Assembly: GCA_001304875.1 (NCBI GenBank)
Contig: BBZO01000005.1
Span: 1 to 64,000 of the forward strand
Source: Clostridia bacterium UC5.1-2E3
GTDB lineage: Bacteria; Bacillota; Clostridia; Lachnospirales; Lachnospiraceae
DNA length: 64,000 nt
Direction: 5' to 3'
Shown here: one piece after another, positions 57,461-64,000 of the stretch
Position numbering within the stretch: the stretch's first letter is position 1
Layout of the letters: the number at the start of each line of letters is the position of its first letter
Made by a program: the position numbers and the translations under genes
Notes under the pieces: generated by a model
The model's database searches: none
What the model was told of the DNA's origin: nothing
What the model saw: only the letters and a program-made list of their open reading frames with translations

Positions 57461-58234
57461 ATGGAAGAAATGCATGTTTCTCTGACGCCCGGCGAGCGCC
57501 AGCGTTTCAAACGCCACCTTCTCCTCCCCCAGGTGGGCGAGGAGGGCCAGATCAGACTCAAAAACAGCCGCGTTCTGATTGCCGGGGCCGGCGGGCTGGG
57601 TTCGCCGCTGGCGCTCTATCTGGCGGCGGCGGGCGTGGGGACCATCGGTCTGGTGGATTTCGACCGGGTGGACGTGACCAACCTGCAGCGGCAGATTCTG
57701 TATGGGGAGCAGGACGTGGGCGAGCTCAAGGTTCACGCGGCGGCGAAACGGCTGAAGGCCATGAATCACGCGGTTCATGTGGAGGAGATTCCCCGGCGTC
57801 TGGATGGTGACAACGCACAGGAGATTGTGTCCGGCTACGATCTTGTGGCCGACGCGCTGGATGACCTGGCGGCCCGGTACGTGCTGAACGACGCGTGTGT
57901 GAAGCTCCATAAGCCAGAGGTTTACGGGGCGATCTATGAATTTTCCGGCCAGGTGGCGGTGTTTGACGAGGGCACGGCGTGCCTTAGATGCTTAAATCCG
58001 GATCCGCCGGAGCCGGGGGAGATGATAGCCAGCGCCGACGTGGGCGTGCTGGGCGTGCTGCCCGGTCTGGTGGGCTGCATACAGGCCGCGGAGGTGCTGA
58101 AAATGCTTCTGGGAACCGGCGGGATGCTGAAGGGAAGGATGCTGTTCATCGACGCGCTGCAGATGCGTTTCGAGGAGATGGAGCTTCCGGCCAATCCCAG
58201 GTGCCCGCTCTGCGGCGGGGGCCTGAGACGATGA
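57461..58234 (+). CDS. moeB: MoeB/ThiF family adenylyltransferase
   Basis: A 257-residue E1-like enzyme that adenylates the C-terminal glycine of MoaD or ThiS-type sulfur carriers. It starts with [46 protein letters not shown] (ATP loop) and has [26 protein letters not shown]. The zinc-binding Cys pairs are CLRC (LNPDPPEP) and CPLC at the C-terminus. The position before moaC and moaA points to molybdopterin synthesis. RBS AGGAGGT. Intact. Confidence 0.88.
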
Positions 58235-58250
58235 GAGAGGACGATATGAC

Positions 58251-58721
58251 ATGGAACAGAAACTGACACATTTTGACGGCCAGGGAAATGCGGTGATGGT
58301 GGACGTGTCTGCCAAGGACGACACCAGCCGCACCGCCGTGGCATCGGGAAAGATAAAAGTGAACCGTGCGGTGATGGACGCGGTGCTGGCCGGCTCCGTC
58401 AAAAAGGGGGACGTGCTGGGCGTGGCCCGCGTGGCCGGGATTATGGCGGTGAAGCAGACCTCCAGCCTGATTCCCATGTGCCACATGCTGCTGATTACCA
58501 AGTGCTCCGTGGACTTCGAGATCGACGAGGAGCATCTGGAGATCAAGGCAGTCTGCACCGCAAAGGTGGAGGGAAAGACCGGCGTGGAGATGGAGGCGCT
58601 GACCGGCGTCAGCGTGGCGCTCCTCACGATCTACGACATGTGCAAGGCCATCGACAAGCGCATGGAGCTGGGGAGATCCGCCTGGAATCCAAATCGGGAG
58701 GAAAGAGCGGGGATTTTGTGA
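58251..58721 (+). CDS. moaC: Cyclic pyranopterin monophosphate synthase (MoaC)
   Basis: A 156-residue enzyme for the second step of molybdopterin precursor formation. Motifs are [53 protein letters not shown] (active-site region with the conserved His), [31 protein letters not shown]. Intact. Its stop is one base before the moaA ATG, so the two are coupled. Confidence 0.95.
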
Positions 58722-58722
58722 G

Positions 58723-59702
58723 ATGATTGACGAGTATGGCAGAGAGATAGACTACATCCGTATATCGGTGACCGACCGCTGCAACCTGCGCTGTGTGTAC
58801 TGTATGCCGGAGGAGGGAGTGCCGAGTATTTCCCATGACGAGATCCTGCGCTTTGACGAGATCACCAGAATCTGCCGGGTGCTGGCGGGAAAGGGCTTTA
58901 AGAAGGTGAAGCTGACCGGCGGGGAGCCTCTGATACGGAAGGGCATTCTCTCTCTTATTAAGGAGATAAAGGCTATCGACGGCATTGAAAATGTGACCGT
59001 CACCACCAACGGGGTACTGCTGGAGGAGATGTACGGGGCCCTGGCGGATGCGGGCGTGGATGCGGTCACCGTGAGCCTGGACACGCTGGACCCGGAAATG
59101 TACCGCAGACTCACGCGGCGCGGGGAGCTGGAGACGGTGCTCAGGGGCCTTACGCTGGCCATGAGGGAGAACCGCATCCCTCTCAAAATAAACTGCGTCA
59201 GCGTTTACGGCGTCAGGGAGCAGGAGCTTCTAAAGGTGGCGGCGCTGGCGAGAGACAACGCGGTGCATGTGCGCTTCATCGAGATGATGCCCATCGGCAT
59301 GGGACGGGAGTTTACCTTTGTGGGCGAGGAGGAGATCCGGCGGATGCTGGAGGAGGCCTTCGGCCCGGCGAAGACCTACGGCGGCGTGCTGGGAAACGGC
59401 CCGGCCAGATACTGGGAATTTGAAGGCTTTAAGGGAAAGATCGGGTTTATCAGCGCTGTGAGCCACAAATTCTGCTCGTCCTGCAACCGCATCCGGCTCA
59501 CGTCGGACGGATTTTTAAAGACCTGCCTCCAGTTTGACGAGGGCGCTGATTTAAGGAGGATTCTCAGAGAGGGCGGCAGCGACGAAGCGCTTGCGGCGGC
59601 CATCGACGAGGCGGTGGGGCGAAAGCCCCTGGGGCACAATTTCGGCGAGAAGAACACATTTCCGGAAGGGAAAACAGAGGAATGTCACAGATAGGCGGAT
59701 GA
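58723..59702 (+). CDS. moaA: GTP 3',8-cyclase (MoaA), frameshift near the C-terminus
   Basis: A radical SAM enzyme that starts molybdopterin synthesis from GTP. The SAM cluster is CNLRCVYCMPEEGV, followed by KVKLTGGEPLIRKG and VTTNGVLLEEM. The C-terminal cluster is FCSSCNRIRLTSDGFLKTC. In the starting frame the protein ends ECHR, but with one base restored near 59,672 it ends MSQIGG at 59702. The C-terminal double glycine is required in MoaA, so the frame break is an artefact or a real damaging mutation. About 326 residues. Confidence 0.93.
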
Positions 59703-59717
59703 CGAAAGGAGAAAATC

Positions 59718-60158
59718 ATGGGAAAGGTAATTGCAACCTGCATCAGTGAGATAAAGGGAATACAGAAGAAAAATGTCCATCAGGTGAAGCTGATCGAGGA
59801 TTTTGGTATCGAGGGGGATGCCCACGCGGGCAAATGGCACCGCCAGGTGAGCCTTCTGTCCTACGACCGCATCGAGGAGTTCAGAGCCCGCGGCGCGAAG
59901 GTGGAGGACGGCGCTTTCGGCGAAAATCTGGTGGTGGAGGGCATCGATTTTAAGACGCTGCCCATCGGAACGAAGTTCGTCTGTAATGATGTGGTTCTGG
60001 AGCTGACGCAGATCGGGAAGGAGTGCCATCAGGGATGCGCGATTTTCCAGCAGATGGGAGACTGCATCATGCCCAGGGAGGGCGTTTTCACGAAGGTGCT
60101 TCACGGCGGAATCATAAAAGAGGGCGACATGCTTGAGATCATGGAGGAGGAGAAATGA
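59718..60158 (+). CDS. MOSC domain protein
   Basis: A 146-residue stand-alone MOSC domain: GKVIATCISEIKGIQKKNVHQVKLIEDFGIEGDAHAGKWHRQVSLLSYDRIEEF, then GAFGENLVVEGIDFKTLPIG and TQIGKECHQGCAIFQQMGDCIMPREGVFTKVLHGG with the conserved Cys. MOSC proteins deliver sulfur or handle the molybdenum cofactor. Located between moaA and mogA, which supports a cofactor role. Overlaps mogA by 4 bases. Intact. Confidence 0.9.
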   Translation: MGKVIATCISEIKGIQKKNVHQVKLIEDFGIEGDAHAGKWHRQVSLLSYDRIEEFRARGAKVEDGAFGENLVVEGIDFKTLPIGTKFVCNDVVLELTQIGKECHQGCAIFQQMGDCIMPREGVFTKVLHGGIIKEGDMLEIMEEEK

Positions 60159-60642
60159 GAGTTGCAGTGATAACCTCCAGCGATTCTGGCTACGAGGGAA
60201 AGCGGGAGGATTTAAGCGGCCCGGTGATCGAGAAAATGGTCACGGAGGCCGGGTATCAGGTGGTCTCAAAGGTGATTCTTCCGGATGACCGGAAGATGCT
60301 GGAGGCGGAGCTTGCGCGGATTGCGGATGCCGGGGAGGCGGATCTTATACTGACCACCGGCGGCACGGGATTTTCGCCCCGGGACGTGATGCCGGAGGCG
60401 ACGCTGGCGGTCTGTGAGCGGGCGGTTCCGGGGATTCCGGAGGCCATGCGGGCCTACAGCATGCAGTTTACGAAGCGGGCCATGCTGACGCGCTCCGCGG
60501 CGGGAATCAGAAAGCAGACGCTCATCGTCAACATGCCGGGAAGTCCGAAGGCGGTGACCGAGTGCCTGGAGTACATTCTGCCGGAGCTTCACCACGGCTG
60601 GAGATTCTTCTGGGGAAGACCGGGGACTGTGCGAGGAAATAA
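60155..60642 (+). CDS. mogA: Molybdopterin adenylyltransferase (MogA/MoaB), frameshift near the end
   Basis: Adenylates molybdopterin before metal insertion. Motifs are VAVITSSDSGYEGKREDLSGPVIEKMV, LILTTGGTGFSPRDVMPEATLAVCERAVPGIPEAMR and LTRSAAGIRKQTLIVNMPGSPKAVTECLEYILPELHHG. One G is missing near 60,594; restoring it gives HGLEILLGKTGDCARK and a stop at 60642, the normal family end. The uncorrected frame runs to 60661. About 163 residues. Confidence 0.9.
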
Positions 60643-60657
60643 CGGAGCTTTTAGGCG

Positions 60658-60686
60658 TTGACACTTCCGGCGGGATTTGCTACTAT
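60658..60686 (+). promoter_or_regulatory. Promoter of structured RNA A
   Basis: TTGACA (60658-60663), a 17-base spacer and TACTAT (60681-60686). This near-consensus promoter begins just after the corrected mogA stop and would start transcription at about 60,693, at the first base of the RNA motif. Confidence 0.85.
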
Positions 60687-60691
60687 AGAAG

Positions 60692-60787
60692 CAGCTCCGA
60701 TTCTCATTACCTAAGGAATCCGTCTATGGTGTGAGAACAGGGTATGAGGGGAAACGCTCATACCTCCCGTGTTTGGAAAGGACGCTG
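60692..60787 (+). ncRNA. Structured RNA A: two hairpins with tetraloop and 11-nt receptor
   Basis: Closing stem CAGCTCC (60692-60698) with GGAcGCTG (60780-60787). Hairpin a: TTCTCA...TGAGAA (60701-60737) containing the 11-nt GAAA receptor CCUAAG (60710-60715) and UAUGG (60725-60729). Hairpin b: GGTATGAG/CTCATACC (60741-60764) capped by GGGAAACG, then CCGTGTTTG (60767-60775). The same four blocks recur at 60,933. After it come a CATCGTG/CACGATG hairpin and a terminator, with no ORF. I cannot name a known class; a metal-oxyanion or cofactor sensor is inferred. Confidence 0.7.
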
Positions 60788-60844
60788 TGAGTTTCCGCAT
60801 CGTGCGGCAACACGATGAACTTGAATGCGTATAAGGAGCCATTT

Positions 60845-60874
60845 GGCGCTGCCGGTTCTGGCAGCGCCTTTTTA
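60845..60874 (+). terminator. Perfect terminator ending RNA A
   Basis: GGCGCTGCC (60845-60853) pairs perfectly with GGCAGCGCC (60860-60868), followed by TTTTTATG. It gives RNA A a length of about 180 bases. Confidence 0.92.
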
Positions 60875-60888
60875 TGCGCACTTTTAAT

Positions 60889-60917
60889 TTGACAGTGAAA
60901 CTTTTATGTGATATACT
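60889..60917 (+). promoter_or_regulatory. Promoter of tupA leader and RNA B
   Basis: TTGACA (60889-60894), 17 bases, TATACT (60912-60917). Near-consensus. Transcription would begin about 60,924, leaving a leader of about 140 bases before tupA. Confidence 0.88.
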
Positions 60918-60932
60918 GCGCCTCGTAATAAT

Positions 60933-61031
60933 ACCTCTTTCGAGCTGTTTTTCCTAAGGCGTACGCTATGGAGAACAGCCAATGGGCATGCCGGGAAACT
61001 GGCATACCTTCCGTGTTTGAGAAGAAAAGGT
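60933..61031 (+). ncRNA. Structured RNA B in the tupA 5' leader (candidate riboswitch)
   Basis: Same architecture as RNA A. Closing stem ACCTcTTTC (60933-60941) with GAAAAGGT (61024-61031). Hairpin a: GCTGTT (60944-60949) with AACAGC (60974-60979), holding CCUAAG (60953-60958) and UAUGG (60967-60971). Hairpin b: GGGCATGCC/GGCATACC with GGGAAAC (60993-60999), then CCGTGTTTG (61011-61019). Stem bases differ from RNA A but pair (TTCTCA/TGAGAA versus GCTGTT/AACAGC), which is covariation. The tupA start is 35 bases downstream, with GAAAGGAAGGG as ribosome site. Confidence 0.72.
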
Positions 61032-61065
61032 CTATTTTTATTTGCTGAAAGGAAGGGAAGTTATT

Positions 61066-62013
61066 ATGAGAAACAAAAAACTGATGGTATCCGCACTGGC
61101 ACTTGCCATGGCAATGGGACTGAGCGCATGCTCCAGTACCGCAGAGACGACCACCGAGGCTGCGACGGAGGCGGCAACTGAGGCTGCGACGGAAGCGGCC
61201 ACCGAGACTGCCGCAGAGGCGGAGAGCGAGGAGTCCGCAGAGGCAGAGGCATCTGATTCTGACAACGTGCTTCTGATGGCTACCACCACCAGCACCGACA
61301 ACACAGGTCTTCTGGATTACTTACAGCCGTTATTCTTAGAGGATACGGGCATCGATCTGCAGTGGACGGCCGTTGGAACCGGCGACGCGATCCAGATGGG
61401 CAAAGACGGCGAGGTGGACATCGTTCTGGTTCACTCCAGGAAGCAGGAGGATGCGTTTGTCGAGGAAGGCTACGGCGTGGAGCGCGTGCAGGTTATGTAT
61501 AACGATTTCATCATCGTTGGACCGAAGGACGGCCCGGTGGCTGTGACTGAGGACATCGAGTCTGTATTCAAGCAGGTGATGGACGAGAGCCTTACCTTTG
61601 TTTCCCGCGGCGACAATTCCGGAACCCACAACAAAGAGACCGGTATCTGGGAGAAGCTGGGAATCACCGATTATGAGAGCAACGAGAACTACATTTCCGC
61701 AGGCGCCGGCATGAGCGACACCATCAACATGGCCGACGAGATGGAGGGCTACTGCTTATCCGACCGCGGAACCTGGCTTTCCATGGCTGCGGATCTCCCC
61801 AACATGCAGATTGTGTGCGAGGGCGATGACAACCTGTTAAACCAGTACGGCGTGATCGCTGTGAACCCGGAGAAATATCCGGATGTAAACAACGAGGCTG
61901 CCAACACCTTCATCGAGTGGATCTGCTCTCCGGAGGTACAGACCCTGATCGGCGAGTTCGGCGTCGAGGAGTACGGCGAGCCGCTGTTCTTCCCCAATGC
62001 TGAGCAGCAGTAA
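61066..62013 (+). CDS. tupA: Tungstate-binding lipoprotein TupA
   Basis: The extracellular receptor of the tungstate ABC importer. Signal and lipobox MALAMAMGLSACSST, then a linker of repeated TEAA units (12-bp tandem repeats, about 61,140-61,210). The mature protein begins with the TupA ligand motif LLMATTTSTDNTGLLDYL and includes FVSRGDNSGTHNKETGIWEKLG. 315 residues, intact. It is preceded by RNA B and followed by a partial terminator and the permease and ATPase genes. The TTTST...SG motifs favour tungstate over molybdate. Confidence 0.92.
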   Translation: MRNKKLMVSALALAMAMGLSACSSTAETTTEAATEAATEAATEAATETAAEAESEESAEAEASDSDNVLLMATTTSTDNTGLLDYLQPLFLEDTGIDLQWTAVGTGDAIQMGKDGEVDIVLVHSRKQEDAFVEEGYGVERVQVMYNDFIIVGPKDGPVAVTEDIESVFKQVMDESLTFVSRGDNSGTHNKETGIWEKLGITDYESNENYISAGAGMSDTINMADEMEGYCLSDRGTWLSMAADLPNMQIVCEGDDNLLNQYGVIAVNPEKYPDVNNEAANTFIEWICSPEVQTLIGEFGVEEYGEPLFFPNAEQQ

Positions 62014-62114: not shown

Positions 62115-62807
62115 ATGGAAGGAATAAGAGATTTATTTTCGGAATTTTTTGGAACCATAGGCGCGCTGGATTCCATCCGGGTGACGGTCATCATGTCGTT
62201 CTGGTCCACGCTCATCGCGTCGGTGCTGGGAGTATTTCTGGGCCTTCTCCTGGAGCGGAAGGACTTTCCGGGGAAACGGGCGGTGATACGGTTAAACCGG
62301 ACGCTCATGGGCGCGCCGCCGGTGGTGATCGGCCTTCTGGCCTACATGATTCTGAGAAAGAAGGGCCCGCTGGGGGATCTTCGGTGGGTGTTTACCATCA
62401 AGGGCATGGTGTTCGCCCAGGTGCTCATTATCACGCCCATCATCTGCGGGATGGTTTACTCCTACGCGGTGCGGACGGCTCCGGCGATCCGCACGTTTGC
62501 AAAGACCATGGGCGCCACGGGGCGGCAGACCGGATGGCTCCTGGTGAAGGAGATGAAGAATGAGATCTATTTCGCTGTCATATCCGGCTACGGGCGCTCC
62601 ATCAGCGAGGTGGGAGCCGTGTTCCTGGTGGGCGGAAATATCAAGAACAATACCAGAACCATGACCACGGCCATCTCCACGTTAAAGGGTGCGGGGGAGT
62701 ATTACGAGGGCGTATTCCTGGGCGTGGTGCTGATGCTCATGGCATTTGTGGTGCAGACGCTGGCGGATCATTTCCAGAGGGAGGAGACTGGCGATGAAAA
62801 TTACTGA
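62115..62807 (+). CDS. tupB: Tungstate ABC transporter permease TupB
   Basis: A 230-residue permease with five to six helices: DSIRVTVIMSFWSTLIASVLGVFLGLLLE, then LMGAPPVVIGLLAYMIL and MVFAQVLIITPIICGMVYSYAV. The EAA-type loop facing the ATPase is FAKTMGATGRQTGWLLVKEM, and the tail EVGAVFLVGGNIKNNTRTMTTAISTL is typical of TupB. Intact. It overlaps tupC by 14 bases. Confidence 0.9.
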   Translation: MEGIRDLFSEFFGTIGALDSIRVTVIMSFWSTLIASVLGVFLGLLLERKDFPGKRAVIRLNRTLMGAPPVVIGLLAYMILRKKGPLGDLRWVFTIKGMVFAQVLIITPIICGMVYSYAVRTAPAIRTFAKTMGATGRQTGWLLVKEMKNEIYFAVISGYGRSISEVGAVFLVGGNIKNNTRTMTTAISTLKGAGEYYEGVFLGVVLMLMAFVVQTLADHFQREETGDENY

Positions 62808-63516
62808 TCTTAAAAAGAGGCTGGGAGAGTTCCAGCTGGATATCGGGAGCATGGAGATCGAGCCGGGGCTGGTTCACGGGTTGATCGGCTCCAACGGATG
62901 CGGTAAGACGACCCTGTCCAAGCTGATCATGGGTATACTGACGCCCGACGGGGGGACCATAGACTACGAGGGGTTGACTGCCAGAGATATTACCATGACC
63001 AGCCAGAAGCCGTATCTGCTGCACGACACGGTCTACAACAATCTGGTGTATCCTTTGAAAATACGGAACATGCCGTTTGAGGAGGCGGAAGTCGATGCCT
63101 GGCTGGAGCGGTGCGGGCTGGCGGACAAGAAGCGCCAGTATGCCCGCAGCTTAAGCAGCGGCGAGCAGCAGAAGCTCTCCTTTGTCCGGGCGCTGATCTT
63201 TAAGCCGAAGCTGGTGATCGTGGACGAGACGCTCTCCAATCTGGATCCGGACAGCGCGGACCTCTTCGAGAGGCTGATTGTGGAGCAGCAGAAGGAGAGG
63301 CCGGTGACATGGATCACCATCAGCCATCAGCTGGTGCACATCCAGAAAATCTGCGACCGGGTGCATTTTATGGAAAAAGGAAAACGGGTGGCGTCGGGGA
63401 CGGCGGAGGAGATTCTGCTGCGGCCCACGCATCCGGCCATCCGTGCGTATCTGGCGAGCACGGAGGTTTCGTTCCGGGCGAAGGAAGACAATGAGCGGGG
63501 AGGAGACAGGACATGA
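62794..63516 (+). CDS. tupC: Tungstate ABC transporter ATP-binding protein TupC
   Basis: A 240-residue ATPase. Walker A is LIGSNGCGKTTLSKL, the Q-loop lies at TMTSQKPYLLHDTVYNNLVYPL, the signature is RSLSSGEQQKLSFVRAL and Walker B is KLVIVDETLSNLDPDSADLF, followed by the H-loop WITISHQ. I place the start at 62794 (GAGGAGA upstream). It overlaps the moeA start by 4 bases, so import and metal insertion are co-expressed. Intact. Confidence 0.92.
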   Translation: MKITDLKKRLGEFQLDIGSMEIEPGLVHGLIGSNGCGKTTLSKLIMGILTPDGGTIDYEGLTARDITMTSQKPYLLHDTVYNNLVYPLKIRNMPFEEAEVDAWLERCGLADKKRQYARSLSSGEQQKLSFVRALIFKPKLVIVDETLSNLDPDSADLFERLIVEQQKERPVTWITISHQLVHIQKICDRVHFMEKGKRVASGTAEEILLRPTHPAIRAYLASTEVSFRAKEDNERGGDRT

Positions 63517-64000
63517 AGCTGCTTCAGGTGGACAGCATAGAGGAGGCCAGGGCAAAGCTCCTGGAACATGTGAGGGACAAGCAGGTGGAGACGGAGACCG
63601 TCTCCCTTGAGGAAGCCGCCGGGCGGATCCTGGCGCGCGATATCGTTTCGCGGGAAAATATTCCCGCGTTTTACCGCTCCACGGTGGACGGCTATGCGGT
63701 GCGGTCGAAGGATACGGCGGGAGCCACGGAGAGCCTGCCCGTGTTTCTTGAGGTGATCGAGGAGGTGGCCATCGGGACGAAGGCGGAGAAAGCCGTGAGG
63801 CCGGGAACCTGCGCCTATGTGCCCACCGGCGGGATGATTCCGGAGGGCGCGGACGCCATGGTGATGGTGGAGTACAGCGAGCTGTTCGACGAGAGCCATG
63901 TGGCGCTCTATGCCTCGGCTGCCTACGGGGCCTCGGTGGTGGTGCCCGGTGAGGACGTGAAGGAAGGCGGATTGCTCCTTGCGCGGGGGACGGTTCTGGG
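63513..64000 (+). CDS. moeA: Molybdopterin molybdenumtransferase (MoeA), cut by window end
   Basis: The first 162 residues of MoeA, which inserts Mo or W into adenylated molybdopterin. Visible are MKLLQVDSIEEARAKLLEHV, VSLEEAAGRILARDIVSRENIPAFYRSTVDGYAVRSKDT, CAYVPTGGMIPEGADAMVMVEYSE and PGEDVKEGGLLLARGTVLG. These are domains III and I of MoeA. The reading frame is open to the window edge. Direct coupling to tupC supports tungsten as the metal used. Confidence 0.93.
   Translation, partial: MKLLQVDSIEEARAKLLEHVRDKQVETETVSLEEAAGRILARDIVSRENIPAFYRSTVDGYAVRSKDTAGATESLPVFLEVIEEVAIGTKAEKAVRPGTCAYVPTGGMIPEGADAMVMVEYSELFDESHVALYASAAYGASVVVPGEDVKEGGLLLARGTVL

Follow-up and report, generated by a model that had tools for sequence, protein, structure and literature searches.

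Two structured RNAs situated between mogA and tupA, RNA A and RNA B, are members of the known Moco RNA motif family described in 2008 (PMC2408646). We put the probability at roughly 85% that both are aptamers of the P3-less type of this family, the proposed Tuco/Wco sensors, and that they form separate units which would both reduce tungstate import when the cofactor is plentiful. Two independent OFF units that respond to Tuco and act on tungstate uptake are the most likely arrangement. The features of the window, i.e. the whole stretch of 64,000 nt of DNA that was analysed, are compiled in Table 1.

Table 1. Annotated features around the two aptamers (positions refer to the window)
Feature	Position	Strand	Remarks
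Upstream cofactor operon	57461..60661	+	moeB/thiF-like, moaC, moaA, MOSC, mogA
Promoter A	60658..60686	+	TTGACA-17-TACTAT, TG before the -10 element; overlaps the mogA stop codon
RNA A aptamer	60683..60800	+	Moco motif without P3, RF01055 match; P1 60692-60698/60780-60787
Intrinsic terminator	60845..60868	+	GGCGCTGCCGG-TTCT-GGCAGCGCC region and T-run, predicted by folding
Promoter B	60889..60917	+	TTGACA-17-TATACT, TG before the -10 element; 11/12 match
RNA B aptamer, tupA leader	60927..61043	+	Moco motif without P3, RF01055 match; P1 60933-60941/61019-61031
tupA Shine-Dalgarno sequence	61050..61057	+	AGGAAGGG; can pair with the 5' strand of RNA B P1
tupA	61066..62013	+	tungstate-binding lipoprotein; NF041772 TupA, 275 bits, E 5e-82 (strong match, below the curated cutoff of 400 bits)
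tupB	62115..62807	+	permease
tupC	62794..63516	+	ATPase
moeA	63513..63998	+	start only, runs off the window

RNA A and RNA B belong to the Moco RNA motif family

The 58-64 kb region of the window was compared with all 4227 Rfam families. RNA A (61.4 bits, E = 2.4e-13) and RNA B (65.3 bits, E = 1.8e-14) both gave full-length matches to RF01055, the Molybdenum/Tungsten (Moco RNA motif) aptamer, and apart from these two no significant match and no rival family was found in this region. The scores lie 25-29 bits above the gathering threshold of 36 bits, and the E-values exclude a chance resemblance. The initial annotation had held that no known riboswitch class fits and had itself proposed the comparison with Rfam, naming a match to a known family as grounds for giving up that view; such a match is what the comparison yielded. 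Its argument that Moco does not fit a receptor placed before the loop and a 3' segment CCGUGUUUG is likewise incorrect, because the Moco motif shows exactly that order and CCGUGUUUG represents the P5 region. That tungstate, molybdate or the cofactor is sensed here by a hitherto undescribed riboswitch class, to which the gene context alone would point, is ruled out to near certainty by the Rfam matches, which cover the full length of the family model and agree with it in the helices, the order of tetraloop and receptor, and the P5 segment. The suggestion of a sensor for tungstate, molybdate or the cofactor was right in part: a cofactor sensor is likely, but the class is proposed to bind the pterin cofactor, as Moco or Tuco, and not free tungstate or molybdate.

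The further description of two homologous structured RNAs was borne out. Both are present and fold as described, and the four blocks CCUAAGG, CUAUGG, GGGAAAC and CCGUGUUUG are common to them in the same order, at offsets of 238-244 nt. In both RNAs, GGAAAC and CCUAAG/UAUGG constitute the tetraloop and the receptor of the Moco motif, with the GAAA tetraloop of RNA A located in P4 and its 11-nt receptor in P2. This pair, already pointed out in the initial annotation, is a published hallmark of the motif, in which the GNRA tetraloop that ends P4 docks on the receptor in a bulge of P2, the loop being GAAA in all but five examples (PMC2408646). Besides P1, P2 with the receptor, P4 with GAAA and the P5 segment, RNA A and RNA B share with the published riboswitch the core nucleotides and the Mo/W gene context (PMC2408646).

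The exchange of TTCTCA/TGAGAA for GCTGTT/AACAGC between the two RNAs, previously read as covariation, is real, and compensatory change is strong across homologous copies. The structure tested was taken from the Rfam consensus and applied first to 24 and later to 68 P3-less copies, almost all of them from genomes other than the present one; the 68-row alignment was fitted to the model and hence leans towards the structure. Changes on both sides were found in 20 of the 28 pairs, and 91.7-93.1% of the cells were paired. Compensatory cells numbered 521, compared to a mean of 174 after shuffling and at most 168 in slid versions, and the covariation score reached 0.64 (shuffles 0.20-0.22, slid versions <=0.17). 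Covariation extends to helices P1, P2, P4 and P5, as in the Moco motif. With our own P3-less model, RNA A scored 77.5 bits and RNA B 93.3 bits, both being among its 24 training sequences.

In a regular-expression scan of related sequences, tetraloop and receptor were mostly retained or lost jointly (both in 98, neither in 6, discordant in 7; Fisher p = 2.7e-6). All six Moco-family copies linked to genes for aldehyde ferredoxin oxidoreductase (AFOR) in the family sample have neither the GAAA tetraloop nor the receptor (L057, L052, L049, L060, L063 and L064, in genomes G383, G148, G322, G164, G084 and G299), and three of the six are compact 105-nt forms. As judged from the sequences, the two elements appear to have been lost together in these copies.

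Absence of P3 and gene context point to the tungsten cofactor

RNA A and RNA B are without P3, which the RF01055 consensus includes; their P2/P4 junctions read CAGGG in RNA A and CAAUGGG in RNA B. P3 is also absent in 58 of the 176 published representatives, and the authors propose, by correlation only and not by direct demonstration, that such RNAs sense the tungsten cofactor (Tuco) (PMC2408646). Like other members of this Tuco/Wco subtype, which occur with tup, moa and AFOR genes, the pair lies among genes for cofactor synthesis and tungsten use. The setting given in the initial annotation, mogA upstream and tupA downstream, is correct, and the pair is followed by tupABC-moeA, a gene context of the Moco motif.

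An AFOR gene, matched in two separate pieces owing to either an assembly frameshift or a broken gene, is located on the same contig downstream of the window (C5:68575-69902). AFORs are a tungsten enzyme family. The organism thus carries on one contig two kinds of tungsten-use genes, tupABC and AFOR, as expected for the Tuco subtype. A modA homolog is present elsewhere in the genome, so that a role of molybdenum is conceivable as well.

The relation between P3 and metal was assessed in those hits of the family sample that are followed by an unambiguous marker gene, with P3 status read directly from the sequences. P3 was absent in all 12 copies preceding tupA (6) or AFOR (6) and present in all six preceding modA, mobA or mobB (exact p = 5e-5, 1/18564, calculated by hand and ignoring shared ancestry). 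At the level of sequence, this split agrees with the Tuco proposal of 2008 (PMC2408646). The outer pair of P5 (U-A or C-G) was also considered as a Mo/W discriminator and rejected, as its types mix among P3-containing copies and track the taxon.

The split has exceptions. One P3-less copy precedes moeA, and a third P3-less copy in the genome studied here (L003, C32:24462-24590) precedes a gene for an XDH-type molybdopterin aldehyde oxidoreductase. A P3-less copy in another genome (G221, C2:729283) likewise precedes an XDH-type aldehyde oxidoreductase gene. Such enzymes normally use Mo, and P3 absence is for this reason an imperfect tungsten marker; the copy on C32 is an exception to the rule unless its XDH-type enzyme uses tungsten. 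That all three copies in the genome are without P3, one of them in such a position, speaks for a different reading, in which RNA A and RNA B belong to the same family but bind Moco or both cofactors, and loss of P3 reflects lineage rather than metal specificity. The modA homolog would fit this, as would the published record, in which Tuco sensing is not shown directly and the E. coli RNA with P3 deleted no longer exerted control, rather than changing its specificity (PMC2408646). However, the division of P3-containing (6/6) and P3-less (12/12) copies by Mo and W markers holds within one bacterial family, and we regard Moco, alone or along with Tuco, as an unlikely, though by no means negligible, candidate for the ligand. 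The Tuco assignment remains the preferred one.

RNA B and its promoter are conserved ahead of tupA

RNA A and RNA B would each belong to a promoter-aptamer-platform unit of its own. Promoter B was equalled in 9 of 5000 shuffles of the local sequence, and a TTGACA / TATACT promoter also precedes the tupA aptamer in six close relatives (L161-L164, L166 and L178), which indicates that RNA B is conserved together with its promoter. The aptamer closest to RNA B is the tupA leader of one of these relatives (L162, 68%), its ortholog. Among 52 other TupA loci, single copies of the P3-less type precede tupA in Lachnospiraceae, Synergistota, Eubacteriales and one Actinomycetota MAG. In the relatives L161-L166 and L178, a second copy of this type is found ~2.8-3.1 kb 3' of the tupA aptamer, in C. 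fessum before moeA. The window contains no such second downstream copy, and tupC and moeA overlap there.

Between RNA B and tupA no intrinsic terminator was found, and the ribosome-binding site of tupA follows RNA B closely. As the 5' strand can moreover pair with the ribosome-binding site and start codon, RNA B, which has a conserved promoter of its own, most likely controls translation of tupA, and it could do so on all tupA messages. In the unconstrained fold, Shine-Dalgarno sequence and start codon are buried against the 5' strand; when the aptamer is enforced, much of the Shine-Dalgarno sequence is freed and the start codon stays paired. Because of this persistent pairing the computed folds are compatible with either an OFF or an ON switch. 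We infer the OFF direction from the example of E. coli moaA (PMC2408646) and from the reasoning that an importer would be subject to feedback.

RNA A probably acts as a terminator-based switch

Dinucleotide shuffling of the 53 nt that precede RNA A gave a site as good as promoter A in 5 of 5000 trials, and promoters A and B are among only nine sites matching at least 10/12 positions on the + strand of the window. The intrinsic terminator follows ~45 nt past the end of the Rfam match of RNA A and separates it from promoter B. Since the unit ends in this terminator, RNA A is most likely a transcriptional OFF switch: Tuco binding would lead to formation of P1 and then of the terminator, and read-through into tupABC would stop. 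RNA A would be transcribed from promoter A and by read-through from moa-mog, and these transcripts would be the only ones it gates, because promoter B is located downstream of its terminator. The 5' terminator arm can be bound by the 5' strand of RNA A P1, a pairing equalled by 102 of 2000 shuffles (5%). Before the 3' arm of the terminator is made (position 60852), P1-formed and P1-open states were computed at -53.8 and -53.1 kcal/mol, respectively. The predicted antiterminator pairing is thus weak, and the two states differ by less than 1 kcal/mol, as required for an OFF switch, which is suggestive only.

RNA A differs from most P3-less members in the base of P2, where U-A/U-A replaces the usual G-C and the C-G or U-A next to it, and in its shortened CAGGG junction, features found in a minority of the subtype. 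The U at the P2 base is also seen in G355, L071 and L122, and L084, L090 and L126 have the same short junction (C-A-GGG). No counterpart of RNA A was detected in the 52 other TupA loci, and it is most similar to scattered copies. A recent tandem duplication is not favoured, neither RNA being among the ten nearest aptamers of the other, nor is a degenerate copy, as the unusual core features recur elsewhere.

These peculiarities, together with the position of promoter B beyond the reach of RNA A, raise the question whether RNA A controls tupA at all. It may instead be a transcription unit of its own (promoter, aptamer and terminator), represent a copy in decay, or serve mainly as the 3' terminator region of the moa-mog operon. 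We consider this improbable, at about the level of a Moco ligand, because RNA A scores 25 bits above the Rfam cutoff, has retained tetraloop, receptor, promoter and terminator, and shares its odd features with other copies, and because serial aptamer-terminator modules occur in other Firmicutes. Still less probable is a reading in which the two are no simple duplicated sensor: RNA A, with its different P2 base and junction and no ortholog in the other tupA loci, would sense a cofactor form different from that sensed by RNA B (e.g. Mo versus W) or act as a stand-alone terminated RNA, and tungstate uptake would then be under the control of two inputs, with output at both transcription and translation. 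In the preferred reading, both units would lower tungstate import under plentiful cofactor.

Relation to known tandem arrangements

RF01055 matches occur in 28 of the 397 genomes sampled for the family, in 44 of 392 for the order, 54 of 391 for the class and 220 of 398 for the phylum; the samples share genomes, and weak matches are lost under stricter filters. Among the matches listed, which set a lower bound, closely spaced tandem copies occur in other Firmicutes, some of them as serial aptamer-terminator modules. Tandems as close as RNA A and RNA B were present in no other genome of the family, order and class samples among these matches.

The nearest published arrangement is the array of Syntrophomonas wolfei, where serial P3-less copies lie on an operon for MPT synthesis and molybdate/tungstate transport, with terminators after the first two of three copies (PMC2408646). 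Here there are two copies instead of three, and the second has its own strong promoter. The pair also resembles the tandem Moco and Wco riboswitches of PMC9481103 in having two aptamers of the same class, apparently with separate expression platforms. Unlike those tandems, of which the Wco representatives precede genes unrelated to cofactor synthesis (PMC9481103), it shows an apparent mix of platforms, RNA A with a terminator and RNA B probably with a platform at the ribosome-binding site. Because promoter B lies between the two aptamers, they share a leader only on read-through transcripts.

Class, subclass and tandem arrangement are thus already described; what the pair adds is a further instance, a second promoter placed between the copies and an apparent combination of platforms. 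The A/B pair is real and well conserved, and taken alone it leaves the picture of the Moco family as before. It provides a clear example, which probably comes from a member of the Lachnospiraceae, of the poorly tested Tuco branch, in which a P3-less copy before tupA is kept across relatives, and the B/tupA unit represents a reasonable test case for Tuco sensing, so far proposed by correlation only.
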